From contig NC_089323.1 of assembly GCF_036669915.1 (NCBI RefSeq), positions 19,201,804 to 19,265,803 of the forward strand: a stretch of 64,000 bases of DNA. Direction: 5' to 3'. This document shows positions 2,597-45,247 of this stretch, piece by piece (within the stretch, counting starts at the first letter, position 1; each line of letters starts with the position of its first letter). The stretch comes from Pocillopora verrucosa (Eukaryota > Cnidaria > Anthozoa > Scleractinia > Pocilloporidae). Below the pieces are notes generated by a model. The model worked only from the letters and a program-made list of their open reading frames with translations. It did no database searches and was not told the origin of the DNA. A program made the translations under genes and the position numbers.

Positions 2597-3202
2597 ATGT
2601 CTATCGTGAGAAGTGTTTGTATTTTGCTGCTTTTGACGGCTATTGCTTTGGAGGCAACCCCATTGTCAGGTAAAGGTGACGTTCAGCCTGATTAGATAGT
2701 ACATGAGTACACTAAGTAAATCATGAGAGTAATGCTATACGCTGACTGTGTCTGCTACATAGTGTTTCACGTTTAACTTTTAGCAATTAAGTAGGCGTGT
2801 TAGTAAATGGGTGATCTTATGGAAAGCAAGACAGAAAAATTGGGAGCGGACTGGTGAACTTTAAAACTGTGGGGATTGTGTGTTGGTAAAATTTACGCAA
2901 TTTGAGTTAACTGTTTCTACTGTTAAGCACTAAAAAACTAAAGATATTTTTGATTGGTCCCGACAGGAGGATTAAAGAAGAGATTGGGACAGCCATATCC
3001 GTGCACCGACTCGTGTGTACCAAAAGGAGAGTGTGACGGTTGGCCCCTGTTATATGGAGTCTGCAGTGATTCCACCATGCAATGTTGTGATACCGTTAGT
3101 ATTAAGAATATTATTGTGAAGATCATTTATTTGCTCGGCAATAAAATTTATAATGAAATAACTGGCAGCATGACGGTTATAGTTCCAGAAAAGAAGTTCT
3201 AA
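2597..3202 (+). CDS. secreted six-cysteine peptide (beta-defensin-like cysteine spacing)
   Basis: Two exons are clear. Exon 1 (2597-2669) starts at an ATG and encodes a signal peptide with a run of leucines, ending at tcag/gtaaag in phase 1. Exon 2 starts at 2967 after cag and continues in frame. The mature region is short and basic (GGLKKRLGQP) and is followed by six cysteines spaced C-x3-C-x5-C-x9-C-x6-CC. This falls inside the spacing range of beta-defensin-like folds, which include antimicrobial peptides and some cnidarian venom peptides. The function is therefore undecided, and the family call rests on spacing alone. The frame can run on to a TAA at 3200-3202. Alternatively it is spliced at 3094 (acc/gttagt, phase 0) to one of two short downstream exons at about 3684 or 4036, each followed by AATAAA (3767-3772, 4131-4136). 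Translation would then stop within a few codons, so the six-cysteine core does not change. Confidence 0.6.
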
Positions 3203-5608: not shown

Positions 5609-6135
5609 ATGTCTTCAAATATTTCGTACATCGTGGTGAGTAAGATTCTATGAGGAAAATCAGCTTTTATTCGTTTGAATGGGTTTAGCATACAACAAAA
5701 TAGAACAGAAAATAAAGTTTTCGCATGATAACGAAATATCGAATCTTAATAAAACTTTTTCAGTTTAAACATATTAACAGTTTTTCTTTTGCTCGGTTAC
5801 AGGTGTTGTGCCTTCTTTATGGCGTCCTCATCAATCTTCCACCAGCTCTCACGCTGCAGTGCTACGCCTGCTTAGAATACCCGGGTTCACAGGATTCTTG
5901 CGCTAGTGCATCCGTCGTCCAATGTCCATCTTTCTTCGACTCTTGCATGACAATGGTCGCCTCGGCCGAGTACTATGGCATGCAATACACAACGACTGCT
6001 AAAAACTGTTCCTCGTCTATTTACGGTTGTGATGAGTCGGTCATGTGTGGTTACGTGCAAACTTCAGTGTCTGGCTCTGGTGGGAGCTTAAAGAGTTGTT
6101 CCCTGAACTGTTGCTCTGGAGATCTTTGTAACTAA
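5609..6135 (+). CDS. secreted Ly6/uPAR (three-finger) protein, LU gene 1
   Basis: Exon 1 (5609-5635, phase 0, donor gtgagt) plus exon 2 (5803-6135, acceptor ttacag) encode about 119 residues. The joined start gives a hydrophobic signal peptide (VVLCLLYGVLINLPPALT) split by the intron. The mature chain begins LQCYAC and ends CCSGDLCN, the hallmark start and end of an LU domain, with 12 cysteines in all. LU proteins are disulphide-rich extracellular ligands or surface proteins. The stop comes directly after CN, with no GPI or transmembrane tail, so it should be soluble. A donor-like tag/gtgtgt follows 7 bases after the stop, at the position where LU gene 2 splices into its tail exons. A 3'UTR exon near 6281 with AATAAA at 6331 fits. 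The gene is a tandem paralogue of LU gene 2, and its specific role is unknown. Confidence 0.8.
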
Positions 6136-7844
6136 TGGCTAGGTGTGTACTTTTCTTAAGATTTTCTTGCATTTCATAATGAGATGAAATTTGTTGGGTT
6201 TATCGCTTCTGTCCTGCTACTGCTTAGAGCCAATGCGCTTCTGAATCTCTGAGTTGATATCACATTTTGCTCTTTCTTAGGGGATGGATGAACGACAGAA
6301 TTCTCAAGACAAAATTAAGATGAAGATGAAAATAAATGTCCTGTTCAATCAGTAGTCATGCAAAAATGATATGAATAAATACTTAAAAAGTCGTCTCACG
6401 ATTAAGATGTTTCTGTGCAAATAAGGGCCGTAAGTTAATTGAGGGCCGTAATTTAGAAAACTGTAATAGGTTATCTTGGAGGGGAAGGGAAGTAGGAAAC
6501 AAAGAGATCATGATGCCCGCGAATGTTTTTTCTGTGGCAGACCCAGAGGGCACGAGTTGATTGAGAAATAATTTTGAGCCCCCTTTTCAAAAGTTCCAGG
6601 ATCCACCCTTTCTTGGATACCTTTGAAGCACACAGGTTGGAAAAGCCGCTGTCGTTACAAAAGAAACACTTCCTTTTGCATAAATCAAAACAAGAAAAAT
6701 TTGAATGGCGCACACTCTGACGTTTGCGAGTAGCTCTTTAAGAGCAACTCCAGGTTTCTTGAATAATGTCTAGTGACTCAAGTAACTTTCGCTTTGACTC
6801 TGAGTGACTCGAATGAGAATGTGTCATAATGGTCAAGAATTGCCCTGAGTCAGTTTCTCGATCTTAAACCAAACAAGAAAAAAGAGTTAAACTATTCAAG
6901 CTCATAAAGTTAGTGAGTCTTTTCAAGAAATGGACCCCGAAGCGACCTTCTCAATGCAAGCTATACCTGTCTATCAACGTACTACCTGGCGAAAAAATTA
7001 GTTGCGCGCACTGAATTGTGGGGAAACAATCTACATAAACACATTGTCTTGAAAGGCACCATAAGAAATCCTATATCTATTTAACTTTTCCTTATTAACT
7101 CCAGTTCAATTTTTTTCTGATCGCGTAATTGACATATTCTGCGGAATTTCACAATTAATTTCACAACTTAATAAAAAATTTAACGATTCAAGTAGAAGTT
7201 TATTTATTTATACAGCTTTACAATTGTTATGTCGTTGGGCCTAACCATAAAAAATTAAGAAATAAATGATAGGGGAAAGTGTTTCCTAAAGAGAGACACT
7301 GTTCAGGTATCTTCTATGTTAGATCTCAAAATGATTCTCAGTGTTCTGTTTTGAAAATCCGTTTTCTCTTCTCCCCAGAACAACTCCCTGCAACGGGCTC
7401 ACCAATCAGCTTGCTGTCCTAATAACTACATTACGTTAAGCAAAACTTGCTACTATGGCAACACAGTTTTCAAAAGTATGTGTAAAAGCCCACTTTTTTG
7501 GAAAATAGTATTAATTTTTAATTATGAGACCGCGCTTTATATTTAGAGCCACTTCTTAGAGTTTCTCATTAAGTTTTAGATTAGTTTGCTCGGCGAAAAA
7601 CAGCTCTATAATTATTTGAAGGAACTGTACATATAGTTTGGTCAAGTAACAATTTTCGAGTTCATAACTCTCGCCAGTTAATTACATCGCCTGAAGCTGA
7701 AGTGTACTCAAGAGAAAAAAATTAATAAAACGCATATTGACTCTTAGTCTATACATTTCTATAAATTGACGATTTCGCATTTTAGGCGTGGCTTATTGCG
7801 TTTGTATCAAGTGGATGAGACAGATTTCTGTAACGATTCCGGAA
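6136..7844. other. 3'UTR and intergenic DNA between the LU genes
   Basis: It contains the probable untranslated last exon of LU gene 1, starting about 6281, with polyadenylation signals at 6331 and 6374. Beyond that I see nothing coding. The 80-codon open frame on the minus strand (6471-6713) has no recognisable features. Confidence 0.5.
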
Positions 7845-10800
7845 ATGTCGTTCGCGTTGGTGAGTAACAACTTCTGTATTGCTTATCAATTGTTCTTTTC
7901 TTTTAAATTGTAGTTTCCAACCTACAGTTGCCTGATAATTTTGACCAAATTTATTGATTGATCATTAAGTCAAGAAGGAAAAGCCCGGCTTCTGTATAAT
8001 TAGGAACCCCTAAAGCCTCGTCTATAATTCCTTCAAGCCCTTGCCACCTCCTGCTTTCTGGGAATACTTTTCCTTATAGTTTCCCAGCTCGTTCTAAAAG
8101 TGAGTTTCATGCATGACATTGTTTATCGAACGTTTGATCTTGTTAAGTATGAGGTGTAACCAAGCCCCAAAGCGAAATTGGTATGCTGACTGAAGCATAC
8201 CAATTTCAGTTGAAAATGTAGATTGGCAACCGTAAAGAAGGAAAAAGCTGACGTTTCGAGTGTTAACCCTTTGCAAAATACTAAATTATCTATTTCACTC
8301 TTTTAGTAACATATATTATCATAATATTATCCAACAGGGATTGTGCCTTCTTTATGGTTTTCTAGCCAATCTCCCAACAACTGTTGGAATCGAGTGCTAC
8401 GCATGCGCAGATTACCCAAATTCACCCACCCCATGTGGTGACAACGCTACCGTGCTGACCTGTCCATCATATTATGACTCCTGTGCTACAATGGTGATGG
8501 GCTTTGACTACTCAGGCTTCAACTTCACAACGATAGCTAAAAACTGTTCCATGGTTGATTACGGTGCCTGCAATGAGAGTTACATTTGCAGTCTCGTGAA
8601 CAGTTCAGTGGCCCCTGATGGAATCCTGACTGAGTGTTCAGTGAGCTGTTGCCAGGACGATCTGTGCAATGGGCCAGGTATTTACTCAGGGGGATGGGGA
8701 CGGGTGGAGGGGGTTTGAGGTGGAGACTCCCACGATAACATTAAAGGTGATTTCAAAGAGCCCTGAAGGATACCAGGGCCTCGTTTTTAGGGTGAGGTAA
8801 AGCATTTTTACGCTGAAAAATACCAGTAGTCGATTCGTAGGACTGACCATTGGTCTTATTTCATACTTTCCCGGTAACACATAATTTCCCGTCACAGAAA
8901 CACTGAACATGCTGTACAAAGGTTTTTTTTTCAGGATAGGTAACAAAATGAATCTTGATTATCCAACTGCAATTCTATGATGATGATAAGAAATTTGAAT
9001 GATATCACATGGAAAATTGCAATTGTATTGATGCTTCAAATAATACTTGAATCAAATAAAGGAACCTTTTAAACTGCCGTGATTGATTGAGAACTCGAAA
9101 CATCGACTGTTTTAAAAATTTGATGAAAAAAAAGGCAAAAACTATTAACTGCCCAGTTTATGACCTGGAATAACTTCTTCCACAGCCGGACCAGGACCAG
9201 AACCAACAGTTGGGCCAGAGCCTCCCGCTCCTGGACCAGACACTAAGAGGTATTTTGCTGGGTACCTTGTCTCTAAACATCTTGGATCTTCATAGAGTAG
9301 CAAAAATATGCTGAGACAGAAGGATTTGGCTGGATAATAACCTTTTCCTTAAACTAACCCTGTTCCTAAGCTATGCGGCTTTTATTTGTCTTATTTTTTC
9401 TGGAACTACTTGACTCACAAAAAAAATATTTTTCTTAGTTTGAATCGTTGTCTTTGTACTGCTTACAGTATGAATATTTTTAAACAGTTTTCACCTAATC
9501 TGTAGGGTCTCTACAGGCTCTCTTTACTTCTCACAAACCAAAGATTCTATTTCTCCATGCTGTTTTCAAAACAGTGACCACGCTACTCCGCGAAACACCC
9601 ATCTATTTAAATTAAATGAATGAGTAAAGTGGTCAAGATAAAATTGAAAATTCTTGGGCAAGTTATTTCAATACATTTTCAAGTGGCGAACGTATAGAGA
9701 AGTCTATGGTTATCAACGTTATATTAAACTTGTAATCGTCGTTCTCATTTCAGTCGTTTACAGTACTACATTAAAACCATACGCGCCATGCTAGATCAGG
9801 TATGAATCAGTCTTGAGGACCTAAAACAACGCCTTCGTATATTTCAATAAGAAAATTATGGTGGGAAAGAGTCTTGACAAAATGCTGGGGATAGAGGATG
9901 GCTTAATGCATTCTATACCACTTCTTTAAGCATTTCGACTTCCTTCTTAAAGTTTGGCTATTTGAGACAATACAATTCAGAACATGAAATAGAAGCAAAT
10001 GAGTTGATTATCCCCAAGAGATACACATAACAATTCAGTCTGTTTGTTCGTCTGTTGTTTTAGATGGAAAGTATCGTGGAGAACGAAGTCGGAGGCAATA
10101 GGCTAAAAAGGGAATTCAAAGGTACTAATTTGAAATTTAAGGTTTGCAATAATCTTAAGTCTCGTGAAATCCCCTTAAGTAAGATCCTATAATCTATGCA
10201 ATTCTCTATATCTCGTTTCAAAAATCTATTTAAAAAATCTTTTTCTTTATTCCAAAATGTCTGCCTAAAGAATAGTTTCGTTAACCTACAGAACGTATGC
10301 GAAGATCTCTCACAGATGTGCAACCGGCATTGGATAGTGAAGGAGGAAAGCTCGACGCTTTCGTTAATCAGCTGAAAAACAATGCTGCAGTGGCCATGAG
10401 AACACTCCAAGCTAAGCAAGGTATTCAATCAATGGCTTTCTATCTGGTTGTTTTAAAGGGGCCGGGTGAAAATGAAGGCACTGAAGCCGTTGAAAGTACC
10501 GATAACAACAGGGGTTGCGATTATAGCTTTTTCCTCCTATTCTTCTCGTGGATCCAGCGCTCAAAAGTCTCACAACACAGCCAGCTACACGTGCTAGGGA
10601 ATGTATACGTCCACTAGTGACGAGTTCCAAGCATGGGCTCCTCTGTCTCGAAAGATCTTTCCTAATTTGATCCAAGTTTTCATTCTTTTTTTTTCTGGTA
10701 CGATAAAATTAAATTTCAGATCGATTCAAAAGACGTGCTGAGATGAAACTGCCGCAACAGAAACGAAAAGCCAAAAGAAACCAATTTCTGAATGAAGCCA

Positions 10801-10850
10801 TGAAAACTATCCAAGAAACATTTTCAAAGTTGTCTGCGAAAAATCGCTAA
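7845..10850 (+). CDS. Ly6/uPAR protein with Pro-rich linker and basic helical tail, LU gene 2
   Basis: Seven exons join in frame: 7845-7859, 8338-8677, 9186-9249, 9754-9799, 10064-10121, 10292-10420 and 10720-10850, giving 260 residues. Exons 1-2 give a signal peptide (MSFALGLCLLYGFLANLPTT) and an LU domain from IECYAC to CCQDDLCN with 12 cysteines. Exon 3 is a GPGPEP-type linker. Exons 4-7 encode a charged, helix-prone tail of about 120 residues with basic sites NRLKR, RMRR, FKRR and KAKR, which look like furin-type processing sites. The stop is at 10848-10850, 4 bases before a donor (gtgagt), so a 3'UTR exon follows (about 11323, AATAAA at 11446-11451). The tail exons match those of the CUB gene at 23.4-25.5 kb in order, phase and near length. 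I do not recognise the tail. It may be a processed peptide precursor or an interaction module. Confidence 0.75.
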
Positions 10851-11977
10851 ATGGGTGAGTAGTAGAGCTCACGAACAGAAACACAAAGACAGAAAAAAAA
10901 AGAAAAAAAGAGGAGAAGAGGAAAGAAATAGACGACAACTAAGCACAGAGTATTAGTCACATTTTTCTCTTTGCAGAAAGAGAGTTTTTGCTCAATTCAA
11001 AGAGGATGGGAAAAAATTTATACTATGCACTATTTTATAGATGTATCCACCATAACTTAGGGCGAACTCATAAGCTGTAAGGATGCGTACAGCACAACAT
11101 GCTGAGTCAAATATTTATGGTCATGAGGATAGGGAGGAAAAGGAATTGATTATTAAACAAATTCTCCTTGTCAGTACCAAAAAAAAATGTTTAAGGGGCT
11201 GTGTGGAGAAACACATGTTGATGTAAAGGTGTAAAAGAAACTGAAATTGTTCTGATACTCCTTGTTCACTACCCACGGGCAAATTTAGAAGCAAATGATT
11301 CATGTTCTTTCTTTTCAACCAGAAAACAAGATAAAGAACGCCTATATCTGCAAATGTGGAAATGATGCAGGCAGAAAAATAATGATTTACTGGAATAATT
11401 CATTTATTTAGTACGGGATAGTAAAATGTTCAATGAAGCAGAATGAATAAAGTGTGGGAAATCTCATGTTTTGTAGTTTTAGTCGATGCATTTATGTATC
11501 TAAAACAAGCTTAAAAATAGTCTGTCATCGTGCCTCAGTAGTGTTAGACAATACACTAAATAAACAGCTCCTTTCCAAAGATTGATCCGAACTTAAACTG
11601 CCCCAATCCTACTCTCTATCAAATAGTGCCCTTGTCTCCGTTGTACCTTTCAAATAGAAAATTAAATAGCGATAAAAACGCAACATAAGCTACCTGGGGT
11701 GCATCAACTTTACTTCACATCACTTTACGATTGATTTAGAACACGTGCTCGACTTTATCAACCAACGAGATGTTATGCTGAACCCAAATGATGCGTAGTT
11801 TTTCCAACGCTTCAGGAACTTTTATTTTTTTTACTAAGGGTTTTCAGTGGCTCATTGTTATAATTCCTTCGTTTTGATTGGCCTTTGTAATTGTTTTACA
11901 ACCATTAATCGAAATGAGCTCTGAGACAAAGAGAATCTAGTTCATAACAAAGTGATACTCCTGGCTCCCAATGTACG

Positions 11978-12080
11978 AAAAGTGGATAACGCTATCCACT
12001 GGATAAATCTCTATCCAGTGTATAGTGCAGCATGTTTTGCTAGCACTTCTATCTACGTTATCTGCCCTTTGAACAACTGG
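11978..12080. repeat. fragment of a 'gtggataacgctatccac' palindromic-end repeat
   Basis: It starts agtggataacgctatccac, itself an inverted repeat, followed by ggataaatctctatccag. This resembles the terminal inverted repeat of a MITE. Only one clear end is visible and the other end is eroded. Confidence 0.45.
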
Positions 12081-14854
12081 GGACAGATTTGCAATACGAA
12101 ACCTATGTTGGCATTTTGGGCAAATCACGTTCCTGATTATTCATCGCCGTATCAATAAATGCGTCATAGCGTGCAATATCCTCTTTCGAAGTTTAAGCTC
12201 ATAAGATCAATGAAATATTTATTTCTACAAGATTTAAATCTCTGGAAATTATCAATTCAAAGAAAGCATTCACATAATTTTTTAAACCGTCGGCAGCTGT
12301 TTCAAGTAACGTGAAGAAAGACAGTTCTCAAAACATCATCAATCCCATATAAACCTGCACTCGCTTCCGTGCATTCTCCCATATGTCCAAATTCGTATAT
12401 GAAATATGTGGGTCCACAGCAAAACATGTATTAACAGAGACGAAAATCAAAGTGCTCTGTGAGCAAACTCGTGAATTGACACATGATTTTTTAGATTATG
12501 TTTAATGTTATCTGGTTTAGGGAATTTTGTGGTTGATTGTCATATCTAGAGTACGAGCAGTAGTTCAGTGTTCGCTAATGTAGCAAAGAAACAAAGTAAC
12601 GTTGGGATAAGAAGGCATTACAATTGAAATGATCATGCTATTACATTTGACAAGGTGGATGATGTCGTGTTTTAAACGTCTATCATTTTTGTTTCTGGTT
12701 CAAAAGAAAAGGTTGGAAGTAAATGTGGGTGAAAAGTGAAATTTACTGGCTTTCGTTGTAAATATTAGAAAATCAAGGCAATACTGTCTTAATGAAAACA
12801 TTAACGATTCCCTCTTTATCAAATGAGACAAACGGGAACGAGTTTTGAGTGATATAACTAAGCCAAGCCTGCCACCGTCATTTTAGATCTCCGCCTGGGT
12901 AGATTTAAGTCACGTGCTAGGCAACGTATAATCAATAACAAGATAGAATTTCATTTCAGGCCTATTTATCAATTTTATGGTGTGTAACTTTCGCATTTTA
13001 GTACGTTGTATGTATGTTGAATCTTCAAATTGTCTTGAAACTTAAAAGAAAATTGTTCTTTAAAAATTCACTGAAAATCGGTAACTAAAATTGTTTGTTT
13101 AGGTGTTATTTGATTTTCTTGTTAACTTGTTATTTCGTCAGTCGCCGGCATCTTTTGTTGCTTCACACAGGAAAAACACACGCGACGAAACTTAATGATC
13201 AATTTTGTCCTCAATCTCACGCTATAACAGACTAGACCCTGTGAGCAGGGTAACTGGGATACCTGGATGGTACTGGATCCTTGGAATCAAGTGCAGTGAT
13301 ACTACGGGTGTCGGACTAGGAAACTGAAATAGTGCGCTCAAGTCTGGCCAAGGGCATACACCTATTTCAAAACATAGGCATGCTATGCGTGCAAGAGTTC
13401 CTTTTTGTAGGGTGGGTGGATTACTTGAAACATTGTGAGTGATGTCTACATTCTTACAAAAGGAGAGAAGAATATTAATGTGGGAAAGAACGAAAATGTC
13501 GAATTACCTCACTCAGAGGTATTTTGTGGTAGATTATATGTGTCTTGCGAATAAATGTAACCAAAAATAAACTGTATTGGTGCCACGGATACCTGTTAGT
13601 ACAAAATGCAGACAGCAGACCGGATACAAAATATAGACTGCAGACTGCAGAGTGGGTACAAAATGCAGACTAAGAATCTGTAGAGTTTTTACGTCTGGTA
13701 TATAATAACATGTCATCTTACAGCTTACCGAGCGTCACGCAATCGCTTTTCTGCAATCCGCCTTCACGATTATTTGCACTATTGTGGAATATTCCTGGCC
13801 CATTTCTTGATGAAAATCGATCGCAATATTATTTCAAGCCTTCAATATAGTCTTTTTACTTTGAGCGCGAGTTGGTTGGTGTGATGTCTGTACAGATTTT
13901 ATCAACGTAATAAAAGTAGATGATGTGAACAACAGTGATGGTAAAGCAAGCTTAAAACGGCAGAAATCGCCAGAAAATACAACGGATACACAGGGTATGA
14001 GTAAGTTTTATAGATTTTAAGAGAAAAATGTTCATATTTCGAAATATGTATCGTTGTAAATCGACCATACTTCGTTCCCTGTACTATTCCCTATAACGTG
14101 CAGTTCCTCTCGTAACTTAACACCGAGTCACACAACGCGTGACGCGTTCATGAATTGATCGTTGGCTTTTTCTCGAGACGTGAGCTTGGGCCGCTTGTGA
14201 CAAGACAATTGCGTAAACAATATTTAACATAACAACATTATACACAAAAAAACACAGGGTTTTGGATCACGTATTTATTAAAAAAGAATATCCATACAAC
14301 TACATTGAAAACAAACATAAGATTCACCTTTCTGATCGTGAAATTAATATCATTCGTACTGTTATCGTAGCTACGTTCCTTGCCATCAAGTGAATCCAAC
14401 ATGTCGTCTTTCTTCACAAGCAGTTTGCATCCCATATAGTTATGTTCTTCAGTCTCACGGTAGTAGCGTTGTTCAATAGATTGCATAGAGTATATGCAGT
14501 TTGGTTTCAAATTTCAGATTTTGCTTTTTACAACAAGTGAACGTTTTTCAACTAAGACATTGGCATACTTAGCATACAAGGCATTCAAGGCTTTCATGGC
14601 TTTCAAGCGTTCGCGACTCAATCCGTTCCAAAATTACCGCTCAATAACATCTTTCAGTGTGGATTAGCCGCGATTAATACGACTTGTATATGCGTCTGGA
14701 AGTATTTTGCGCGTTTGCGCTATAATACTCCAGGAGATCGCAATCCAATTACGTTGAAATACAAAACAACTGACCAAAGAGTTTTATAAGCAAAATCTCG
14801 TGTTCGTCATGTGACCCGGCCCTGTCTGTGTATGACAACGTCAATCATTATCAA

Positions 14855-14986
14855 CATAACACGCGTGATCAGCATGTGAACACCTCATTGGATCACAGTT
14901 AGTTGTCATGGTGTTGAGGGATAACGTGCGTGATCCGTATGTGAACACCTCATTGGATCACAGTTAGTTGTCATGGTGTTGAGGGC
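14855..14986. repeat. two-copy tandem duplication, 64-bp unit
   Basis: The string cacctcattggatcacag and its downstream neighbour ttgtcatggtgttgaggg recur at exactly 64 bases' distance (14881 and 14945). The 3' two-thirds of the units are nearly identical, while the 5' part (cgcgtgatcagcatgtgaa / tgcgtgatccgtatgtgaa) has diverged slightly. Confidence 0.8.
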
Positions 14987-15456
14987 CCAATGACCTCTGG
15001 GTACTATTGCGCAATTTTTCCATTTTGTGGCGGAGGAAAAAAAAAAAAAAAAAGACGACAAAAAAACAGAGGCATTTTATGACTGGGCTACCACAGGTAT
15101 CCCAGTAAAAAAGCTTTTGAACATCTGTAAACTCCGAGCGCTTCGCAGTAAGTGATATTTTCAATGAATCTTCGGATTGTTTTCAAGTTCAAGGATTGTA
15201 AATTACAATTTTATGAAAAACGAAGGTTGTTCTGTTATTTCAGTGTGAATCCTTGAATGCTTGCCAGTCGCTGGCGCCGCTTGTTGAAACTAAAACGAAA
15301 AAGAAAACTCTTTTAAAATTATCATTGGCTTCTTTTTCATCCCACCACTATTCTTAGCAACAAAGGTCGCCATTTCGTCTGTTTATTGCTCGCCAAAAAC
15401 TATCAAATGCACTCAAAAGCCTAAAATCTAAAAAAAGTTTACAGGAATCGACCAAT

Positions 15457-15483
15457 CGAGCGAGCGAGCGAGCGAGCGAGCGA
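15457..15483. repeat. (CGAG)n microsatellite
   Basis: Nearly seven perfect CGAG units in gene-poor DNA. Confidence 0.9.
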
Positions 15484-16804
15484 ATGCTATTGCCCCACCT
15501 CGTATCTATAACTCGCTCTTGCGCATGCTCGACAATTTCACGAGTTAAAAGGGGAAAAACCTAATTGAAATGATGGACTTTCCTTGTCGGGTACTGGTAT
15601 AAGTCTAATAATAGTAATAATAAATATAATTGATTAAGTATCAATGAATGAAACGTCGACCTTAGACGAAATGGTGTTTTACTCGTCATCACAAAATGCC
15701 ACTTTCAAGTCTTAATTAAGTGTTAATACAAATAGCCCAAATTTCACAATTGGTGGGGGTTGTCCATAAACCCTGTTCACTTTAATTTACATTGTACAAC
15801 TGGAAGTGCAAATAATCGGTCCCTACATTTTGTATGCTCATCTCTAATACTAATTCAAAGAGATTCCTATTCTTTTTAAAAGCATTAAAAATCTGGCCTC
15901 TAAAGTTGAAAATTTATCATGGTTTTTTTTTTATCAAATCAATGAAGTATATATTCTACAAGCGAACAGAGATTCCCGGAGGAAAGGTTCAACTCCAGAG
16001 TTTTGTAGTGTCCCTTCAAATAGTATTCGCATCGCTTAATTAAAGTTTTTCTTTTCTGTTTGACTAATGTTCACATCGAATCAGGAAACCATTCTGCTTA
16101 TTTACTCTATGTGCGAGCTTAAAATTGTCTTCTTACTTCCCTCAACAATTTTACTCACTGAACCGTGCCGAAAACCGTAACACAATTAATATTTTCAGTT
16201 ATCCCGTGAAAAATTTAAGTTTAATCTTTTCGTTGTAGCAATTAAAGCATTCATGAAGCATTGCTAGGTACCTTGTTTCGCTCACATGAAGCTTCAATGT
16301 CAATGCTTGCAAACTGTATAAAAAAGTCTAACGCATCTAACTCGGATTTAAAGTTTTCTGTGTATTCTCAAAGTAATAAAAAATTCTCATTTCTTCAGTT
16401 CTATTTTCTGCATAGAAACACTTTTGTTGCGTCGGAATTTTCTTTACTTCCGACAAATTAACTGACGAGAAGGAGCGTAAATTAATTAAAAATCGCTTTG
16501 CATTTTTGCAATTACCATTCCAAAAGGAAAAAAAAAAAAAAAAACAACAATCACAACATATAAATTTACCTATTTTGCCCCTAACTTAACCATCATTTGA
16601 GGCTCTCCTCTGGCGCAAATTAGTCCTCGGAATAATGCACGCTTCAGAAGATGTCAGCACCTTGGTAGAGTATTTAATCACCAACCCTTTTTTTACTTTG
16701 GCTTCTAAATACACGCTTTGGACCACTGGAAGTCCGGTCCTAACTAAAAGGAGCATACTAGAAACGTGAAAACCGCCTAAAATTTTCAGAAAAGGCGGTT
16801 TTAC

Positions 16805-17022
16805 ACGAAACCCTTTAACCTTCCCAGATCAAATATGTAACTCGCCTTACTGATCAACTATCCAATTTTTATAATGTTATTTCAGAGAATTTAGTATTGG
16901 ATCAACTTCTATCCGCAAATAGATATTTTTCTTTGTTCTCATCACTTATCTATTTGATATTGTATTGATACCGTAAGGATAAAATTCTGTCTTGGTCCGT
17001 CATGAGAGTTAAAGAGTTAATA
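16805..17022 (+). repeat. dispersed repeat family B, copy 2
   Basis: Same orientation and landmark order as the copy at 4.9 kb: aaccctttaaccttccca, gagaatttagtattggatca, ttgatattgtattgatacc, gagagttaaagagttaa. The ends are approximately inverted (aaccctttaa / ttaaagagtt). Confidence 0.6.
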
Positions 17023-18132
17023 ATCGCTCAAAAACACCCTAAAAAACCACCGGAAATCATGATTTTCAATCTAGAATGAAACAGTGAGGGCACGGAGTTG
17101 GGCAAGTCCAGTAACAAGCCCGTGACACCGCTTTTAACGACTGTCGAAAGCGGCAAAAAGGAGAAAGGGAGTGGAAAGAAAGCGGCAATGAATATGACCA
17201 AAATTGGAAGCCGGAAAACCGCCCGTGCCTTTAAATTGCTCTGCAGCTAAGCCCCACTAAAATATTTTCCATTCACGTTGGAAAATTGGAATGTCGCTTT
17301 AAAAAGTAACTTGAATGATTAACAGAATTGGAGTTATTTCCAATTGATTCATTGTTCAGATCTCTGTGGTGGTGGTGATTGCTCTCTTTTGCTAATGTTC
17401 CAACAGCATTTATCAGTAAGTTAGGAGTCTTTTCATATATTTACTTTTCATTCTCTTTACAATCACTATTGTAAAGCCGCTTTCAGTTAAAAGATGTCGA
17501 AACACCCAAATAAATATGATCAAAACGGTCAAATTAGAGCCAAGCTTAACATCGTCAGTAGCTAAATAGGAACAGCAGGGATAAAATTAAACGAAAGTGC
17601 AGTATTACACGTGACTGGCACCAGTTGTTTAGAACAATCAAAGAGCAAAGTTAAGCGAACCAAAGAGATTCAGGATTACTTTCCGTACGCAATCGACAAA
17701 TGCTCTCACATTAAATACCTCCTCGATAATATTTGAAATACTGTAAAAAATCTTTTTTAAAAAAGGTTCTTAGAAGCTTTGATCTATGGGCATAATATGT
17801 TTGGAATATGATAACATTAACATTATTAATATTCATTACTATTATTCTATTAATATGAAGTTAGACAATTTCTCATTTTCTACGGAACCTGACTTTTGAA
17901 AAATACGTCCATAGCCTCGGCATATTGGAAAGCCTGGTTCCGAAGTAAAAGCGGATGAAGTACAAAAAAGGCCTCAGGTGATATTTACAAAGTGAAGCTT
18001 TTATCTAAAAAAATACTGTGGCAAACAAGTTCACAGACAAATTGTATAAACTGGCTTCCATATGACTGACCATGCTATCCTAAGCTTGCGTTCTTAAAAG
18101 ACTATTTAACATTGATAATTTGTGTTTCTACA

Positions 18133-19970
18133 GAATGTGCGGGAATGTGACGAATTAATGAACTGAAAAGTCCCAGGTACCCGAGTAACTACCCAAATAG
18201 CATAGATGATTGCGGTTACTGGGTCGTCATTTCTGCTGGTCAAGACAATGCACATCTACTTTAATGACTTCCATCGCGAATCTAGCTTCTCATGTGGGTA
18301 AGTGGGATGTGAAAGTAGAACGGGGAAAAAAATAAGATATTTCATCAGAACTCTGTAAATCTCCCATACAAACTTGACAATCGGTTACACCATCATTTAT
18401 TTCCATCTCGTATGCATTCAGTCCTATTCCATTCCTAGGAGTGACCAAAAAGGTATTTCTCTTTGATATAAACTTTTCCCAGCTGAAAGGTGTTAAGAAA
18501 GAAATCTATCTCATGGAGATGTTTATTTATTTAACATCTATTTTCTAAAAATTTCACCCCTATATACATTAGGGTCACAAGAATAAAAGAAACGATGACC
18601 AACTCAAGAAGCCTTGATGATTTAAAAACTCTCCTTTTCAGTACCTCAGGAAATGTATGGAGAAAAGTATGGCAAAATGACTGTAAGGTGGAAAGGGTAA
18701 AGGATGATTGAAAATAAAGATAAAATTTCCTACTTTTTTAACGAAAACCCCATGAACAAGTCCTATTTGCATATAAATATTGTCTACCACAATATTTGCC
18801 AATGGAGGTAAACATGCCTAAAATAATTGTTCATCCATTTTGAAAATTACCTGACTATTATTACTCAGGTCAGGATCTCATAATAGTCCACTTTGCTCAG
18901 GTCAAAACGTGACAGAGGAATTTGATTTAATCTTTTACATAACAGCTTGGCTATTTGAAGATTGCAAACGAAAAAGATGAGACATTTGGTGGGCGCAATG
19001 GAAAGTACTGTGGTTGATGAATATGGAAACGTCAGTGTCACTGGTCAATACGCTGTGTTAACATTTCATTCAGACGGCAGCGTCTCACGTGGAGGATACA
19101 ACTTGACATTCACTTTTGCCCCTGTCGGGCTGTAAGTACGGTGACATTTTGTTTTCATATGGGTCTTTACTTCAACCTTCTTAGAGATAAGATATTGCAA
19201 AGAGAAAAAGATGATGGTTAAGGATGATGGAGATCAAGCTGAATTGTAAATTAAGGAACTCCAAAAAATCGAGGCTGTCTTTTTCCAGATGCAAAAAAGT
19301 GTGTGCTGATAAGCCCTTTCTTTGGCTGTTCTCGTATCACTGAACTCCAGTGAGTTTCCACTACTCGGCGTGAGTTATAGGAGTACTGGGTACTCTCAAT
19401 CTATAACGATTCCATGGGTGGACCTTAATGTAGTGATCTCATTTCACTTTGCAGCAAATGGTACACAGTCTCCGCCCACTAACCCTCCAAGTAAGTAGTA
19501 CTGTGTTATACATCAATTTCAAATGGCATTATGTTACTGATTATTCAAAATCAAATTTGGAAATAAAACACATTATGTGGGTAGACAAACCCTAAGTGAG
19601 ATAAATGTGCTTGAAAGGGAAAAAAGAAGGAATATAGTGGAGAGGATCAATTTAGAAGATTAATGTATATTCCCGGAAAAACCATGAAATAAAGGTCACC
19701 GATAATTCATCAAACCCTGTTCTCTTCCTTAGTAGACAAGTGATTCAATTTGGTTCATCTTGTATCAATCAACTCCAGTGATTCCCCCAGGATGGTAGTG
19801 GCTTAGCAGTTATAATAGCTCATTACAAGAACGTCATTACAGCATTAAGCAACTTCATGAATGTAATGTATTAAGTGGGTGTGGTTGTTTTCACCTCTTC
19901 CGGGACTCGGTACCCCTTATACTCCCACATACCCTCCAACATCAGCAAACCATCCATGTAAGTAGCACTG
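18133..19970 (+). pseudogene. decayed CUB-domain exon pair and linker exons (duplicate of the CUB gene)
   Basis: It parallels the working CUB exons 2.5-2.9 kb downstream. The first-half exon (about 18133-18297) still shows the SPRYPSNYPNSID block but has a stop near its start in every frame, and a TAA interrupts it before its end. The second-half exon (about 18949-19133) is very close in sequence to 21797-21981 but has a one-base loss near its start (cttggctatttgaag against ctatgactatttgagg) and a TGA after the YCG codons. Linker-like exons remain at 19463-19491 and about 19910-19970 (TYPPT type). Introns are also homologous, so this is a tandem segmental duplication and not a processed copy. 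Confidence 0.75.
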
Positions 19971-22745
19971 ACTTATCCATCAATCTCAGTTGATATCTTT
20001 CAAATATCAAGAACAACTTTTTTATGTAAATTGTAACATTGATTTTAACAAAACACAATCTAATGAGTCAATCTACACTGTGAAGTAGATTTCAACTGAG
20101 AGTGAAATGTTATTTAAGATTGCCATTGGGTTTGCTTTACTTCACTCGTGATTGGGTTAAGAACAGTCACACTACCCCCTTAACCGCTAAAAAAAAACCA
20201 AATAACTTAAACTTATGGAATTTTTCTCTTTCCTTTGTAACTTCTATTTAATTCACCGTTGGGCCCTCTTGTAATATTATCATTGTTTTCCATAGTTGCA
20301 TTCGTTTTTTCAATTCAGTAGGTACTCAAGGTCCACAAACATGTCCCCCAACAAATCTCCTTGGTATACCACAGCACCACCAAACGGTAAGAAGACCAAA
20401 GTACTACACATTTGAATTAGTTTGTTGAATTGTAAAATTCCATTGAGTCAGTATTTTCTCTTTCCCTTTATACAGTTGGCCTCTTGTAATACTATCAGTG
20501 CTTTCCATTGTTGTGTTTGCTTTCAATTCCACAGGTACCCAGGTCCACAAACAGTGTACCCAACAAATCCTCCATGGTATACCACAGCACCACCAAACGG
20601 TAAGAAGTCCAAAGTACTAAAGAACTTAATTTAATTTCTTGGATGTTGTAAACTTCATTTGTGTCGATATTTTTCTTTAAATAATCCTTCTACTTTTATT
20701 ATACAGTTGGTTGTGGTTACGTGCAAGGTTATCAGCTCACAAGTCCCGGATATCCAAACAATTATCCGAATGGGATAGACTGTGAGTACTGGGTCTACAT
20801 TCCTTATGGCAAGGCGTTAAGAATTTACTTCAATGAATTTCAAGTTGAGTCCCATTCAAGTTGCAGGTAAATGAGTTGTGAAGCAAACAGGTTTCAAAAT
20901 TACCGCGTAATGCATCAGTACTACATATACTGATCTTCTGTAGGAACATGACAAGTGATACTTGACTTGGATGGGGAGGGAGGTGGGGGGTGGTGGGGTG
21001 GGGGTTGTGGCTGGTGGGAATTAGAAAGCGAGGAAGATGTACTGCACCCTGACCGAAGGCTGTTAGAATAGAGTATGGTTTATGACGGTCCCAATGGAAT
21101 ACTTAGAGAAATGATTACCATACAAAGCATACTCGCTGGTGCATTTTATGATCAAATCCAGTACCAAGCTCTACTGCGATTCTATCTTTAACTATTAGAT
21201 TATGGGCTCGAGATTTCTATCGCATAGTTGCTGATAAGGGAAAAGCCCAAATCAACTACTACTTTGGCAATCGAGAGAGAATAATGTAATTATTTTGGTA
21301 TAAATCTGCAAGTAATTAAATCCTTAACAAGATAGGTTCATGTTATTTTTCTGTCTAGTTTAGAACTGTTCACTGAAAGGTCTTTCACTCAATTCACTGT
21401 CTATCACCAAATAGGAAAATATCTATCTCAGAATAGAAAGCGAATAGCACAGCCAATCAGGTTGAAAGAACGCAAGTAGATTAAAACGAAAAGGAAATAG
21501 AAATAATTGATGAATAGTGTAGCGTTTGTTCCTATATTTGGATAAATACCGTAGCCATTAGATATCTTTATTTCATTGGTTAGCACACCCTTGACCGCAG
21601 TCATGTGATTATCCATATATATTTGCTTATAAATATTGTCCACCACTTCACTTTAACTGCAATATTTGCTGATGAAGGTAACACGTCTATAATAATTTTA
21701 TAACCATTTTGACAATCACGTGACCGTTTCTCAAGTCAGGAGCCTCTGCTCAGGTTTAATTTATAGAGGAATTTGGTTTAATCTTTTTCATAACAGCTAT
21801 GACTATTTGAGGATTGCAAACGAAATAAATGAGACATTTGGTGGGCGCAATGGAAAGTACTGTGGTGTTCAATATGGAAGCGTCAGTGTCACTGGTCAAT
21901 ATGCTGTGTTAACATTTCATTCAGACGGCAGTGTCGCACATAGAGGATACAACTTGACATTCACGTTAATCCCTACTGGCTGTAAGTACTGTAACATTTT
22001 TTTACAGATCAAGTCGAATTGTAAAATAAGTAACTCCAAAAAATCGAGGCTGTCATTTTCAAGATGCACAAAAGTGTATGCTGACTAAGCCCCTTCTTTG
22101 GTTGTTCTCGTATCACTGAACTCCACCGAGTTTCCACAGCTCGGCGTGAGTTATAGAAGTATTGGGTACTCTAAACCCATTACGATTCCATTGGTGGACC
22201 TTGATACAGTGATCTCATTTCACTTTTGCAGCAAATGGTACCCAGCCTCCGCCCACTTACCCTCCAAAACGAACCCCTGCAAGTAAGTAATACCGAGTTA
22301 TATATCAATTTCAAATGGCAGCCTTTTACGAAATATTCAAAACAAAATTTGGAAATAAAACACATTATGAGGAAGACAAACCGTGGTGAGGTAATTGTGC
22401 TTGAAAGGGAAAAAAAAGAACGCAGTGGAGAGGATCAATTTAGAAGATTGATGTATATTCAAAGAAAAACCATAAAATTAAGGTCACGAATAATTCACCA
22501 AACCCTGACCCTTCCTTAGAAGATAAAATAATCAATTTGGTTCATCTTGTATCCATCAACTCCAGTGATTCCCTACAAGATGGAATGGCTCATAGCAGTT
22601 ATAATAGCTCATTACAAGAAGTCATCAGTTACAGCATTAAGCAACTTCATAACCATAATGTATTAAAGTGGTGTAGTTTGTTTTCACCCCTTGTGGAACT
22701 CGTATCCCGTATACGCCCACTCATCCTCCACGGGTTTCGTAGATC
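18765..22745 (+). repeat. tandem segmental duplication covering CUB exons and introns
   Basis: Intronic as well as exonic stretches repeat at a spacing of about 2.85 kb. Examples are atataaatattgtctacc (18.77 kb) against ttataaatattgtccacc (21.63 kb); the ctccaaaaaatcgaggctgt stretch at 19.26 and 22.03 kb; ggaaataaaacacattatg at 19.56 and 22.35 kb; and the cttgtatcaatcaactccag block at 19.76 kb against 22.54 kb. Copy 1 is the decayed one and copy 2 carries the open CUB exons. Confidence 0.75.
20329..20599 (+). repeat. duplicated Pro/Thr-rich linker exon (two copies 207 bases apart)
   Basis: Two near-identical exons (20329-20392 and 20535-20599) are both followed by a gtaagaag donor. They encode a PGPQTVYPTNPPWYTTAPPN-type linker. 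The first copy differs by small indels that shift the frame within it, so only the second is certainly usable. This shows recent exon duplication in the linker of the CUB gene. Confidence 0.65.
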
Positions 22746-25480
22746 ACATTATGTTTCAAACCATGTTTAAAAGGTGAACTAATCGGAGTAATGTGTAATA
22801 AAGAGATGAGACAAATTCTAAGTTTCATCGGTCTCCGCTTCTATAGTTTCAACTATAATGTTTTCGCTAATGTTGTTTTCTTTTAAAAGGAAGATAACAT
22901 AAACATAAAATTTTACTTGAAACTATAAAATCAAAAATAGAGTTCACCACACCAATACCAAACACAGCTTGTCCGACAGCCAGCCGTGAGTATTTTAGGA
23001 TTTCGTTGGCGCTCTTCTTCTGGATAGAACTTCATAACTGTTACCAAGTTTCACGCTTTAACTCAAATTCAACAACAAGGTCACGAAATTCGCCTTCAGT
23101 TTGTCCTCAACTTGTATAAAAAGTGAAATTATGTTTCATTTCTTCAGAAACTATCCATAACGCTGAAAACAGCAACGTAAACTCATTCAAACGCCAGAAT
23201 TTAGAGATATGTTTTCCACGAAGCTTAGATAAATCTCGACTCGAACTAAATTGGGTAATGTACACGGTAAAATATTTTGTTATGTTTGTGGCGGATCACG
23301 AATCACGCAAAGCTCAATACAAATTTACCTTAAGTTTCGCGAGAAAGTTAAAATACCAATTCAAGCTTCACGCATCATTTACAGTGATGTAAGTTTAATC
23401 TAAGATGCGAGAAAATGATGTTGTGTAAAGTTTCTATCCTTTTCTGGACCTTTTTTACCAGCTATGTTTCCATCTGTTGGACCATCTCCCGATGCAAAGA
23501 GGTAAATAGCGAAATCTGAGTTTTAATTTTTCCATGTAGTTCCTATTACCGAGTAACAGCCACCGAAATACCAAATATTAAAGTTGCTTTTCAGCAGAAA
23601 TTGCTGCATTAAGTTACACTTTTAAGTCATAAATAACCAGACCTTGCATACTTGATTTTGGAGTAACGGATAAGCTAATGATTCTATTCATTGCTTGCTA
23701 ATAGAGGAGTTTTTTGTCGTTTTTATTTTCAGTGAACTCCAGTACCTCATTGCCATCGTGCGATACCTCCTAAATCAGGTAATAGCATTGAATGAAATAA
23801 AAGTTACCGAGATCCGTCAGGTATATTAACGATGGAAGTCTCCTATTTGTATTTGGGGACTGCAGAAGTCCCTAATTGATGCCTTGTTCGACCAGAAAAC
23901 CTCTCTACAGAAATGAAAGACTACTCCTATATCGTCTATAGAAAAATGTAGCCTGGAAATATGGGTTGATGAAGAAAGCCCAGATTGAGAAATATAGAAG
24001 TGGCGTTTTTTCCTTGCATTTTCATTTGATCTAATTCCCCTAATTCGAAATTCAAGTTTTATCATAATGGCAAATGAAAACCACCTCGTGTGACGTAGGC
24101 TATATGTGTTTAGAACTGTATTATAACAGAAGCACATAACATTCAGTTTATGACGATGATGATGAAGAATATGATAACGATGCTAATGAATATGATATTG
24201 ATTGCACTTCATTTCAAACCACCCAACCAAGTCATCAAGCAAAGGTATTGGATAAGTTCCTGTCTGTCTTTCAAAGTTTCTCCAAACTGAAAAATTTAGC
24301 CTAAATTTTTGAAGTTGTACATGCGCAATTCACAACTATCGGTTTTCCAACGACCCACTAAACTGAGAGAAACTAAAGATATCGTTACGTGGCTCCATTA
24401 AGGCGCTAAATCTTTACAATTTCCTTCCCCAGATGGAGTATGTAGTGAACAATGAGGTTTTCAGTGTGTCTGTCAGGGATTATGAAGGTAGGCCGTTTAA
24501 TCAAGCATTAATGTACATTCAGAATGTTATTAAAAAAACTTACAAGCCTACGATTAAAATTGCATCTTGTTTGAGCAGATGTACTTTATGGGAAAACAAA
24601 CAGCAGCCGTCTCAAAAAATATCAATGGACGAACGAATAAAGAATGAGCACCAGTAATGAAACAAACGAACGAATCGAAGAACAATGAACGAACAAACGA
24701 CCAAACTGAAGAAACTAATAAGCCCGCTAACATACAAACGAAAGAACCAAAGAATGACAACCTGAGAATGAAAGAACGGACGACCAAACGAATGAGCCAA
24801 TGAGGACCAAGGAACGACGAAACGATCGAACGCAGGAACGAACTATCGAGGGCCAAGGATTGAGCGAATGGACGAACGACCAATCAAACAAGCCAACAAA
24901 CGAACTATTGAAAACCAAACAATGGACGAACGAACGAACAAACAAACGAGCAAACAATAGAATAAATGAATGAATCAATGAAGCAACGAATAAATGAATA
25001 AATGTTAAAGTTTTGTTTAGTTTTGTTGAGCCGTTCAGCGGACCTCTATCTGAGCCACCATAAAACTTCCCTAAAAATAGATGATTGCGTGAAAACCAAA
25101 ACGTGGTAAGATGCACCCCGGCTTCGCCCCTAAAACCATGGTTCAAATTACTACGTCAAGTTTTCTTGTTTTTAAACCGACAGCTCGAGTCAAGAGAGCG
25201 ATTACTGATGTCCACCATGCTCTACGGGCTGAAGGAAGGCAGAAGCGTGACGTTAGTAGTGTGGAGATGATTAGTCAGTTGGAAAAGAAGGCTGACGATC
25301 TAATAAAGCAACTGCAAATCAAAGAAGGTGGGTAACACTCCTTGGGCAACTCATAACAAGATGAAAAAAATCATTCGTTTAAGACTAGATAAAGAGTCTT
25401 TGTGTCCTGTTTTAGATCGATACCAGAGGAGTGCCCCTAAAAGGAAAGTTGCTATTGAGGATGCTGAGAAAGCTCACTGA
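20535..25480 (+). CDS. secreted CUB-domain protein with Pro-rich linkers and basic helical tail (5' end not found)
   Basis: Exons 20535-20599 (Pro/Thr linker), 20707-20866 and 21797-21981 (one CUB domain), 22232-22282 (linker PPPTYPPKRTP), 22968-22985 (possible 18-base microexon), 23462-23501 (linker), 23733-23778, 24433-24487, 25184-25327 and 25416-25480 join in frame. The CUB half-exons show GCGYVQGYQLTSPGYPNNYP, then the YCG and LTFHSDGS blocks typical of the fold, with C...C pairs. CUB domains bind proteins and glycans outside the cell. The last four exons repeat the tail of LU gene 2: S-E-LQYLIAIVRYLLNQ, then basic sites RVKR and RQKR, then a short basic end. The stop TGA is 4 bases before a donor (gtaagg), so a further exon exists. 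The signal-peptide exon was not identified. Upstream lies a decayed duplicate CUB pair. Confidence 0.65.
24620..25015. repeat. degenerate (GAAC/GAAT)n tetranucleotide tract
   Basis: About 400 bases of aacgaacgaacaaacgac-type units inside an intron of the CUB gene. It keeps long open frames on the minus strand (Ser/Phe/Val/Arg-rich) purely from base composition. Confidence 0.8.
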
Positions 25481-26111: not shown

Positions 26112-26124
26112 GGCACTGAATAAA

Positions 26125-29606: not shown

Positions 29607-30307
29607 ATTTCAACCTGGTGGTACTCATTTTAAATAAACTTTTGAGAAATAAGTTAGGAAGAGTCTAAAACAGAAAGGAAAGGGAGATATTCCTTTACTT
29701 GTCTGGCCTGCTAATAAGTTAACAAGGGTTTTGTGTTTACTCAAACATTCTTTCCTGTTTAATTGTATATAGTGAACTTATTCACTTTTTTGCAACCTTA
29801 GGGATTGATAGGCCACTGTTCATTTGCTGGTACTTTTGCTTAAAGTAGTTCATTTTAGGCTTGAAAATATGTAGTTTATCTGCAAGTTTCAAGCGCATGG
29901 TAGTTAATTTTAGCTCACACTTTGTGTAGAATAACAATAAGCATTAAAAAGTGAGCTCAAGAACTTGAGTTTATAAAAAAACCTATACTGCTGAAGAGTC
30001 CACTGACATTGTTTAATTTTAGAGTTTATAACCTTATATTTTTGTTTTCATCTAGCAGTATAAAATTTTGATACAAAATGGAAAAGCAGTAGCTGTGGTT
30101 TCTATTGCATATAATTGTTCCCACAATTCTTGATGAGAGATCTTAGGCTCATTGACAGTGCATCCTTCACTTACTCTGACTAAAAAAAGAAAGACGGATA
30201 CATTACAAGAAGCAAAGGTAATCCCAAATAACTTTGATGTTCAATTAGAGTTTGTACTATTTTGAAATTGTTTAACTATACAACGCAGTTAGCCCCTGGG
30301 AAAGGAG

Positions 30308-35010: not shown

Positions 35011-35185
35011 AACAGAGCCGATTGAGTTTTAACGGCGATCAAAGCCAAAAAGGCTGTAAAGATCCTTTCAGAACAGTCAGCGAAAACTATCAAGTTCGCC
35101 GCTCTGTTTAAATGAAGGGAAACTCCCTGGGAATTGTGGGAGGAACAGTTTAAATGAGAGGAGTCTGGAAATAGCTAAATTTTAA

Positions 35186-35302
35186 ACGTGGCTGATGCTA
35201 AAACCGTGAAAGGAACAAATCCACAGTATCTTGTCGAGAAGTAGTTCGCTTACGTGTTTATGACAATAAATACTGGAACGAGCAATATTTTGCACTTTCA
35301 GG
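35186..35302 (+). pseudogene. relic of PRPF38A exon 1
   Basis: This stretch aligns with PRPF38A exon 1 at 45248-45377: gctgatgctaaaaccgtg / tctgatgcgaaaaccgtc, then acaaatccacagtatctt / actaatccacagtatctt, ending at ctttcag/gta in both. The start codon and the next few codons are missing, and a one-base loss after the GAGAA (gagaagtag against gagaaaatag) brings a TAG. No further PRPF38A exons follow. It was carried along when the TPR-CHAT gene and its shared promoter were duplicated. Confidence 0.85.
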
Positions 35303-45081: not shown

Positions 45082-45247
45082 TATAGAGCCGATTGACTCT
45101 TAACTGTGATCACAGCCAAAAAGATTGGCAAAATTCTGTCAGAACAATCAGCAAATAATGCCCACAATCGGCGAAAGGGAAATTCACTAGGAATTGTGGG
45201 ATGCACAGTTACACGCGAGGAGTCTGGAAATAGCAATCAAATCCAAA
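45082..45247. promoter_or_regulatory. bidirectional promoter, TPR-CHAT copy 2 / PRPF38A
   Basis: Only 166 bases separate the two divergent start codons, so they must share promoter sequence. No TATA box is apparent. The block ggaattgtggga (about 45190-45201) is kept in the duplicated promoter of copy 1 (gggaattgtgggag near 35131), which suggests a functional element. The fragment ctggaaatagc next to the PRPF38A start is also kept. The factors that bind are not known. Confidence 0.65.

Follow-up and report, generated by a model that had tools for sequence, protein, structure and literature searches.

A shared, putatively helical tail on secreted LU and CUB proteins of stony corals, possibly distributed by the splitting of one gene

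How do two neighbouring genes whose products begin with different extracellular domains come to end in the same tail? The question is raised by a stretch of 64,000 nucleotides of the stony coral Pocillopora verrucosa (RefSeq assembly GCF_036669915.1, contig NC_089323.1, positions 19,201,804 to 19,265,803, forward strand), hereafter the window, in which one gene (LU1) encodes an LU (Ly6/uPAR-like) head and another (the CUB gene) a CUB head. An earlier reading of these letters without database searches, called here the sequence-only reading, had proposed that both heads were joined to one portable, unrecognised four-exon tail, perhaps a peptide precursor. The shared tail is borne out below; we explain it, with middling confidence, as a helical assembly module on secreted LU and CUB proteins, possibly clipped by proteolysis, whose two genes in the window were split from a single LU-CUB-tail gene.

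The eight tail exons lie where the sequence-only reading had placed them (Table 1), with AG acceptors throughout and GT donors on the six that are non-terminal, and its exon lengths (46/46, 58/55, 129/144 and 131/65 nucleotides in LU1 and the CUB gene, respectively) and phases (2-0-1-1) are correct. The Pro-rich linker that it saw before both tails turns out to be part of the shared block: the last five exons of the two genes, linker exon included, match one to one, and the phases at entry and inside the linker-tail block are 1-2-0-1-1 in both. Linker and tail align exon by exon with 41% identity over 105 amino acids (BLASTP, E 5e-21), and in both genes the four inner introns fall at identical positions of the alignment. 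Chance similarity is ruled out by shuffling, in that the tails alone, stripped of the linker, reach a local score of 143, against a mean of 30.2 (standard deviation 5.4) and a maximum of 65 in 5000 shuffles. Matches between the tails at codon positions 1, 2 and 3 amount to 59.6, 71.3 and 41.5%, respectively (94 codons), and because third positions agree far less than first and second, the tails appear to have been kept at the protein level. Similarity between their introns is unconvincing (best E 0.02), which points to an old duplication; since the introns do not align convincingly and each tail type is also found in other coral families, a recent local duplication of the tail is unlikely. Judged from these alignments, the two tails look like old paralogues conserved as protein. 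When the whole genome (353.4 Mb, 52 contigs) was searched with tail and head queries, the LU tail gave four matches, every one in LU1, and the CUB tail four, every one in the CUB gene; since each query missed the other tail of the window, distant tail copies could escape such a search.

Heads and tails are joined in single coding chains. LU1 consists of seven coding exons on the plus strand, ending at 10850, with GT/AG at all internal splice junctions and a single open frame of 270 amino acids if translation starts at the ATG at 7815, or 260 if it starts at the in-frame ATG at 7845. Its alignment with P0007, a 274-residue open reading frame (ORF) in a 1015-nucleotide contig that runs from a signal-like start through LU domain and linker to the tail, begins at the 7815 ATG and shows 76-77% identity across the full length. 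Because the corresponding exons of the window span 3 kb, the P0007 contig must be either a spliced product or an intron-less copy. The counterpart on the CUB side is P0009, the NCBI model for Pocillopora verrucosa named 'deleted in malignant brain tumors 1 protein', which combines CUB and tail and whose every residue is encoded by a chain of ten exons in the window (18998 to 25480); a further ORF of 274 residues, P0010, occupies a 985-nucleotide contig and runs from a signal-like start through a segment with KR at its end and a CUB domain to the tail. Separate genes for head and tail, which the sequence-only reading had named as the finding that would undo its proposal, are ruled out by the exon chain of P0009 and the single-ORF contigs of P0007 and P0010, and by these chains head and tail belong to one gene in LU1 and in the CUB gene alike. 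The interval first proposed, 8678..25480, keeps its downstream end at the CUB stop but begins too late, as LU1 starts at 7815 or 7845; the NCBI model of the CUB gene starts at 18998.

The two heads differ in how readily they are recognized. In P0009 the CUB domain is a clear match to PF00431 (E 1.5e-22, 80.4 bits against a cut-off of 21.4), and in the window translation it is found with E 3.8e-20. The LU domain of LU1 stays below the cut-off of PF00021 (E 0.0011, 19.8 bits against 24.8), as does that of P0007 (E 8.8e-5, 23.3 bits). A cysteine pattern ending in CCxxDxCN is the hallmark of the LU or Ly6-uPAR domain, and LU1 shares this ending, with 12 cysteines, with the neighbouring gene LU2. 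We call the LU1 head LU-like; an AlphaFold2 model of the domain, built from two sequences only, has a mean predicted local distance difference test score (pLDDT) of 46.4, too low to be relied on.

Tail-bearing relatives show which heads the tail accompanies. A single CUB domain precedes it in P0009, P0010, P0011 (Stylophora pistillata) and P0013 (Desmophyllum pertusum), three CUB domains in P0016 (Stylophora) and P0019 (Acropora muricata), and an LU head in P0007 and P0017 (Oculina patagonica), whereas P0020 (Montipora foliosa) combines LU, two CUB domains and the tail, and P0018 combines LU and CUB with the start of the tail only, its ORF ending after 22 tail residues. The LU label of P0017 and P0018 reflects similarity to LU1, without a Pfam match. 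Among the ten long relatives scanned with Pfam there is no third head type besides LU and CUB, and no peptidase or SRCR domain at E up to 0.1. The profiles used to find homologues partly included head columns (a tail-less head, P0008, also matched), and the tails were therefore re-tested alone. None of 1000 shuffles reaches the observed score when the Acropora, Oculina and Desmophyllum tails are compared with those of LU1 and P0009, and the Montipora P0020 tail beats 1000 of 1000 shuffles against every CUB-type tail and that of Acropora; against the P0018 piece, with which it has no segment in common, it does not beat all shuffles. The Oculina model (isoform X1) runs past the donor of tail exon b and lacks the part with the R-x-x-R site, possibly as an isoform or a model error, and read-through at 10121 in the window yields a peptide similar to the middle of the P0017 tail.

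All relatives with a species name come from stony corals (six of the 18 matches in one search, plus Desmophyllum in another), a restriction that holds for matches found by a search reaching only relatives that share short words; prokaryote and viral collections returned 115 and 29 pattern matches, respectively, none of which was confirmed. Pocillopora (Scleractinia, Vacatina, Pocilloporidae), Oculina and Desmophyllum belong to Vacatina and Montipora to Refertina. Its presence in Montipora and in the Vacatina corals suggests that the tail predates the Vacatina/Refertina split, unless it moved between them.

Two models can account for the sharing of the tail in the window. The sequence-only reading had the tail joined to different heads within one cluster. 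The different heads stand, LU in one gene and CUB in the other, but the restriction to one cluster does not, as P0020 and P0018 carry both heads and joins are also found in Oculina, Desmophyllum and Acropora. Since both heads occur with the tail in one protein in other corals, they are not independent, and where they share a chain the order is LU-CUB-tail (in P0020, and in P0018 with its tail start), which makes LU1 and the CUB gene likely complementary remnants of a tandem duplicate. An ancestral LU-CUB-tail gene would have been duplicated in tandem, one copy then retaining LU and tail while losing CUB, the other retaining CUB and tail while losing LU. Under the alternative model, exon shuffling placed an independent tail cassette, entered through a phase-1 intron, separately behind LU and behind CUB, and the proteins that unite LU, CUB and tail arose later by fusion. 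The LU and CUB heads alike end in phase 1, both linker-tail blocks start at a phase-1 intron, and phase-1 boundaries are usual for shuffled extracellular modules according to the available excerpt of PMC8001218; moreover, the heads differ while the tails match. The portable tail is nevertheless rather doubtful in view of the LU-CUB-tail order in Montipora P0020 and in P0018 and of the failure of any third kind of head to appear among the ten long relatives, and partition of an LU-CUB-tail ancestor seems the simpler account of the architectures compared. In the tail tree, from which P0018 was omitted, LU-tails (LU1, P0007 and Oculina) stand apart from CUB-tails (Pocilloporidae and Desmophyllum) with modest support (84/83 and 84/90), the separation holding across coral families, and the LU-head tree has P0018 and P0020 as a pair (93/97), with LU2 unplaced. 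Partition is the direction of evolution that we infer.

The tail itself contains no cysteine, is basic (net charge +2 to +14) and measures 107-133 residues in the nine cases that are complete from first helix to stop. Neither Pfam, NCBIfam nor PDB offers a convincing match, and in this the sequence-only reading was right to call it unrecognised. What comes nearest are sub-threshold matches to families of helical or coiled-coil kind; the Stylophora tails, for instance, match Laminin Domain II (PF06009) weakly, with E 0.015 and 0.019 (15.8 and 15.4 bits, cut-off 33). This and the other sub-threshold Pfam matches (Muted, OmpH, EstA_Ig_like and MSP1b), the ZorA models and the ATP synthase gamma chain (E 0.084), also sub-threshold, and the ELKS, OmpH-like and NEMO chains (E 0.26 and up) were taken as chance or helix-like composition. 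Conservation and periodicity were measured on seven of the 11 tails, P0010 and P0016 being omitted as near-duplicates and P0018 and P0020 as partial. The first segment is best conserved (mean pairwise identity 0.51, while the three segments after it reach 0.42-0.43 and the C-terminus 0.28) and shows in most tails the pattern P-D-x-x-S-x-L ... Q-M-E ... N-E. Hydrophobic periodicity has p of about 0.04 at both 3.5 and 3.6 in helix 1, and 0.03 at 3.6 and 0.11 at 3.5 in helix 3. For tail exon c of the CUB gene, two helices are predicted with a mean pLDDT of 86.5 and a predicted template-modelling score (pTM) of 0.58, in a model that drew on the whole of alignment A3.

Between helices 1 and 2, an R-x-x-R motif is present in eight of the ten tails that reach that column (P0018 ends earlier), in the strict form R-x-[KR]-R in five (LU1, P0007, P0009, P0010 and P0013); it reads RIND in Acropora and is missing from the Oculina isoform, whose lack of this segment may come from exon choice only. 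The claim that basic cleavage-like sites punctuate both window tails holds in part: RMRR and RVKR align as R-x-[KR]-R, and RFKR and RYQR as R-x-x-R, but RQKR is confined to the CUB tail, and RLKR and KAKR to the LU tail. RQKR recurs in P0009, P0010, P0011, P0016 and P0013. The shared sites exceed chance mildly (0.027 and 0.030 of 20000 joint column shuffles).

On the reading favoured here, the two genes belong to a family of secreted proteins in which an LU and/or CUB recognition head is followed by a Pro/Thr-rich linker and a cysteine-free, basic, putatively helical tail. By inspection, LU1 begins with a signal peptide, and among relatives of the CUB type P0010 and P0013 have signal-like starts. 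The tail, with a putative amphipathic first helix, a furin-type site and then a two-helix segment, would most probably act as an assembly module through which the proteins form pairs or bundles, of one kind or mixed, bringing LU and CUB heads onto one scaffold, and clipping at R-x-x-R could free or rearrange the last helices. A bolder version, which we regard as unlikely, holds that the tail is a helical domain restricted to corals and so far unrecognised, which arose before the sampled suborders Vacatina and Refertina parted and serves as an adaptor; LU-headed and CUB-headed subunits, a single chain in other corals, would through it re-form a mixed complex after the gene split, with furin-type clipping as the switch.

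Several observations weigh against the explanation by partition and assembly. The same architectures would result if separate LU-tail and CUB-tail genes had fused, the grouping of P0018 with P0020 (93/97) is compatible with either partition or fusion, and the CUB tree offers little resolution. Of the two proteins that unite the heads, the Montipora P0020 model lacks the first tail exons, and its tail is matched against LU-type tails by 31, 37 and 16 of 1000 shuffles, while P0018 stops 22 residues into the tail. The contigs of P0007 and P0010 ('lgn') have no stated RNA or DNA origin, so an intron-less copy is possible. The helix model covers a single exon, comes from a two-sequence alignment and has a pTM of only 0.58, and the p-values for periodicity are weak and uncorrected, that of helix 2 being non-significant (0.07). 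Finally, the CUB locus is disturbed upstream. Ahead of the intact CUB exons, at 18.1-19.9 kb, lies a second copy of the CUB unit, alignable in two blocks with 79 and 83% identity. Parts of this copy are out of frame, as is a P0010-type signal-peptide exon at about 17370 (17370-19131). The NCBI model P0009 begins inside the upstream copy and is by inspection without a signal peptide, so that secretion of the CUB protein in this assembly is presumed from its relatives. A related ORF on another contig, P0024, runs through the second CUB exon; the frame breaks at 17370-19131 may therefore be allelic, recent or assembly errors.

The suggestion that the tail is a peptide precursor fares worse than the shared tail itself. 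The tail would be a pro-region cut at R-x-x-R or KR to release a helical bioactive peptide, with signalling or antimicrobial function, and the head a carrier. The motif between helices 1 and 2 in most tails, RQKR in five CUB-type tails, the positive net charge and the alignment of sites between the two window tails all fit this idea. By contrast, the best conserved part of the tail precedes the site, which itself is RIND in Acropora and missing from the Oculina isoform. Cnidarian preprohormones, as defined in the available excerpt of PMC7523074, must contain three or more similar peptides and three or more sites at which G precedes KR, RR or R; applied to the 11 tails, this definition selects none, as each has 0-2 amidation-type signals (G-[KR]-R or GR) and no repeated peptide was seen by eye. 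We consider a peptide precursor quite unlikely.

It is very unlikely that these are coral extracellular-matrix or skeletal proteins with a basic tail binding acidic matrix or mineral-associated polymers: the tails are indeed basic, and the skeletal proteome of Acropora digitifera includes CUB proteins that have a signal peptide but otherwise lack known domains (excerpt of PMC4890752), but DMBT1 and similar names reflect general similarity, the skeletal proteins were compared by name only, and PMC7115838 contains neither 'Bone morphogenetic' nor 'tolloid', with 'CUB and peptidase domain-containing' appearing twice.

LU2, the gene next to LU1, has a head 52% identical to that of LU1 and no tail that could be found; its stop codon falls just before the position at which LU1 splices to the linker. 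In the whole-genome search, the LU1 head gave ten matches, namely LU1, LU2 and eight weak ones (29-40% identity) on other contigs, so that by this search no other LU exon in the genome is close to the LU1 head. In each of the three genes a GT donor-like site follows the stop codon at a distance of 4-7 nucleotides (stops at 6135, 10850 and 25480), exactly 4 nucleotides in both LU1 and the CUB gene, which suggests an intron right after the stop in each. Elsewhere in the window, an ORF at 2954-3100 encodes a six-cysteine pattern ending in CC that is reminiscent of defensin-like peptides; a Pfam scan with E values up to 1 gave no match for it. Duplicated blocks at 30061-45155, 72-92% identical and about 6.1-6.4 kb and 10 kb apart, contain minus-strand ORFs that we take to resemble TPR/CHAT proteins. 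A minisatellite with a unit of about 79 bp and ten overlapping register copies occupies 40724-41605, and an Rfam scan of the window found nothing at the gathering score.

Table 1 Exons and genes of the LU and CUB loci, in window coordinates.
Feature	Coordinates	Strand	Remarks
LU2	5609..6135 (exons 5609-5635, 5803-6135)	+	Neighbouring gene, LU domain only
LU1 exon 1	7815..7859	+	Start and first part of signal peptide; ends phase 0; GT donor
LU1 exon 2	8338..8677	+	Remaining signal peptide and entire LU (Ly6/uPAR-like) domain; 12 Cys; ends phase 1
LU1 exon 3	9186..9249	+	Pro-rich linker; phase 1 to 2; aligns with CUB-gene linker
LU1 tail exon a	9754..9799	+	S-LQYYIKTIRAMLDQ; putative first helix
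LU1 tail exon b	10064..10121	+	M-ESIVENEV...
LU1 tail exon c	10292..10420	+	RMRR site; corresponds to CUB tail exon c, for which two helices are predicted
LU1 tail exon d	10720..10850	+	Includes stop; AATAAA at 11446
CUB gene first exon in NCBI model	18998..19131	+	Part of upstream CUB copy with disturbed reading frame; P0009
CUB gene Pro/Thr-rich exon	20535..20599	+	P0009
CUB domain first exon	20707..20866	+	Pfam PF00431; P0009 exon chain
CUB domain second exon	21797..21981	+	Ends phase 1; Pfam PF00431, P0009
CUB gene Pro/Thr-rich linker exon	22232..22282	+	Phase 1-1; P0009
CUB gene linker exon	23462..23501	+	Homologous to LU1 9186-9249; phase 1 to 2
CUB tail exon a	23733..23778	+	S-LQYLIAIVRYLLNQ; putative first helix
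CUB tail exon b	24433..24487	+	Alignment with LU1 tail exon b; P0009
CUB tail exon c	25184..25327	+	RVKR and RQKR sites; two predicted helices
CUB tail exon d	25416..25480	+	Includes stop; AATAAA at 26119

The tail is a protein module missed by the domain libraries searched and obscured by annotations such as DMBT1, BMP1-like and tolloid-like, and it is not named in the titles or abstract openings of the literature searched, among the matches listed. The locus offers a testable case in which one secreted protein of several domains seems to have been divided between neighbouring genes with a common tail. If the tail reunites the parts, reef corals would possess a natural 'split protein' system; if it is clipped, it would be a potential source of peptides.

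Compared with known systems, the tail proteins share basic cleavage-like sites with cnidarian neuropeptide preprohormones (excerpt of PMC7523074) but differ in having no repeated peptides, hardly any amidation signals and large head domains. LU1 resembles secreted single-domain Ly6/uPAR (three-finger) proteins in its signal peptide (by inspection), its one LU-like domain and its CCxxDxCN end, and departs from them in the Pro-rich linker, the long helical tail, an LU domain confined to one exon and a Pfam score below cut-off. The sediment-responsive uPAR-like transcripts of the coral Diploria, cited in the available excerpt of PMC10836209, could be LU genes of the LU1 kind. With coral secreted CUB proteins annotated as DMBT1-, BMP1-, tolloid- or CUB and peptidase-like, the CUB gene of the window has in common its CUB domain(s) and Pro/Thr-rich linkers; by contrast, the ten proteins scanned have no peptidase and no SRCR domain by Pfam at E up to 0.1, and its tail belongs to no known family, which makes the DMBT1-, BMP1- and tolloid-like names misleading. 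Collectin necks are helical oligomerization stalks of extracellular recognition proteins, and the tail proteins may be likened to them in layout, with a recognition head on one side and, as predicted, amphipathic helices on the other; they are unlike them in the C-terminal position of the helices and the internal furin-type site. The tail is a module on known secreted domains that has so far been met only in corals.

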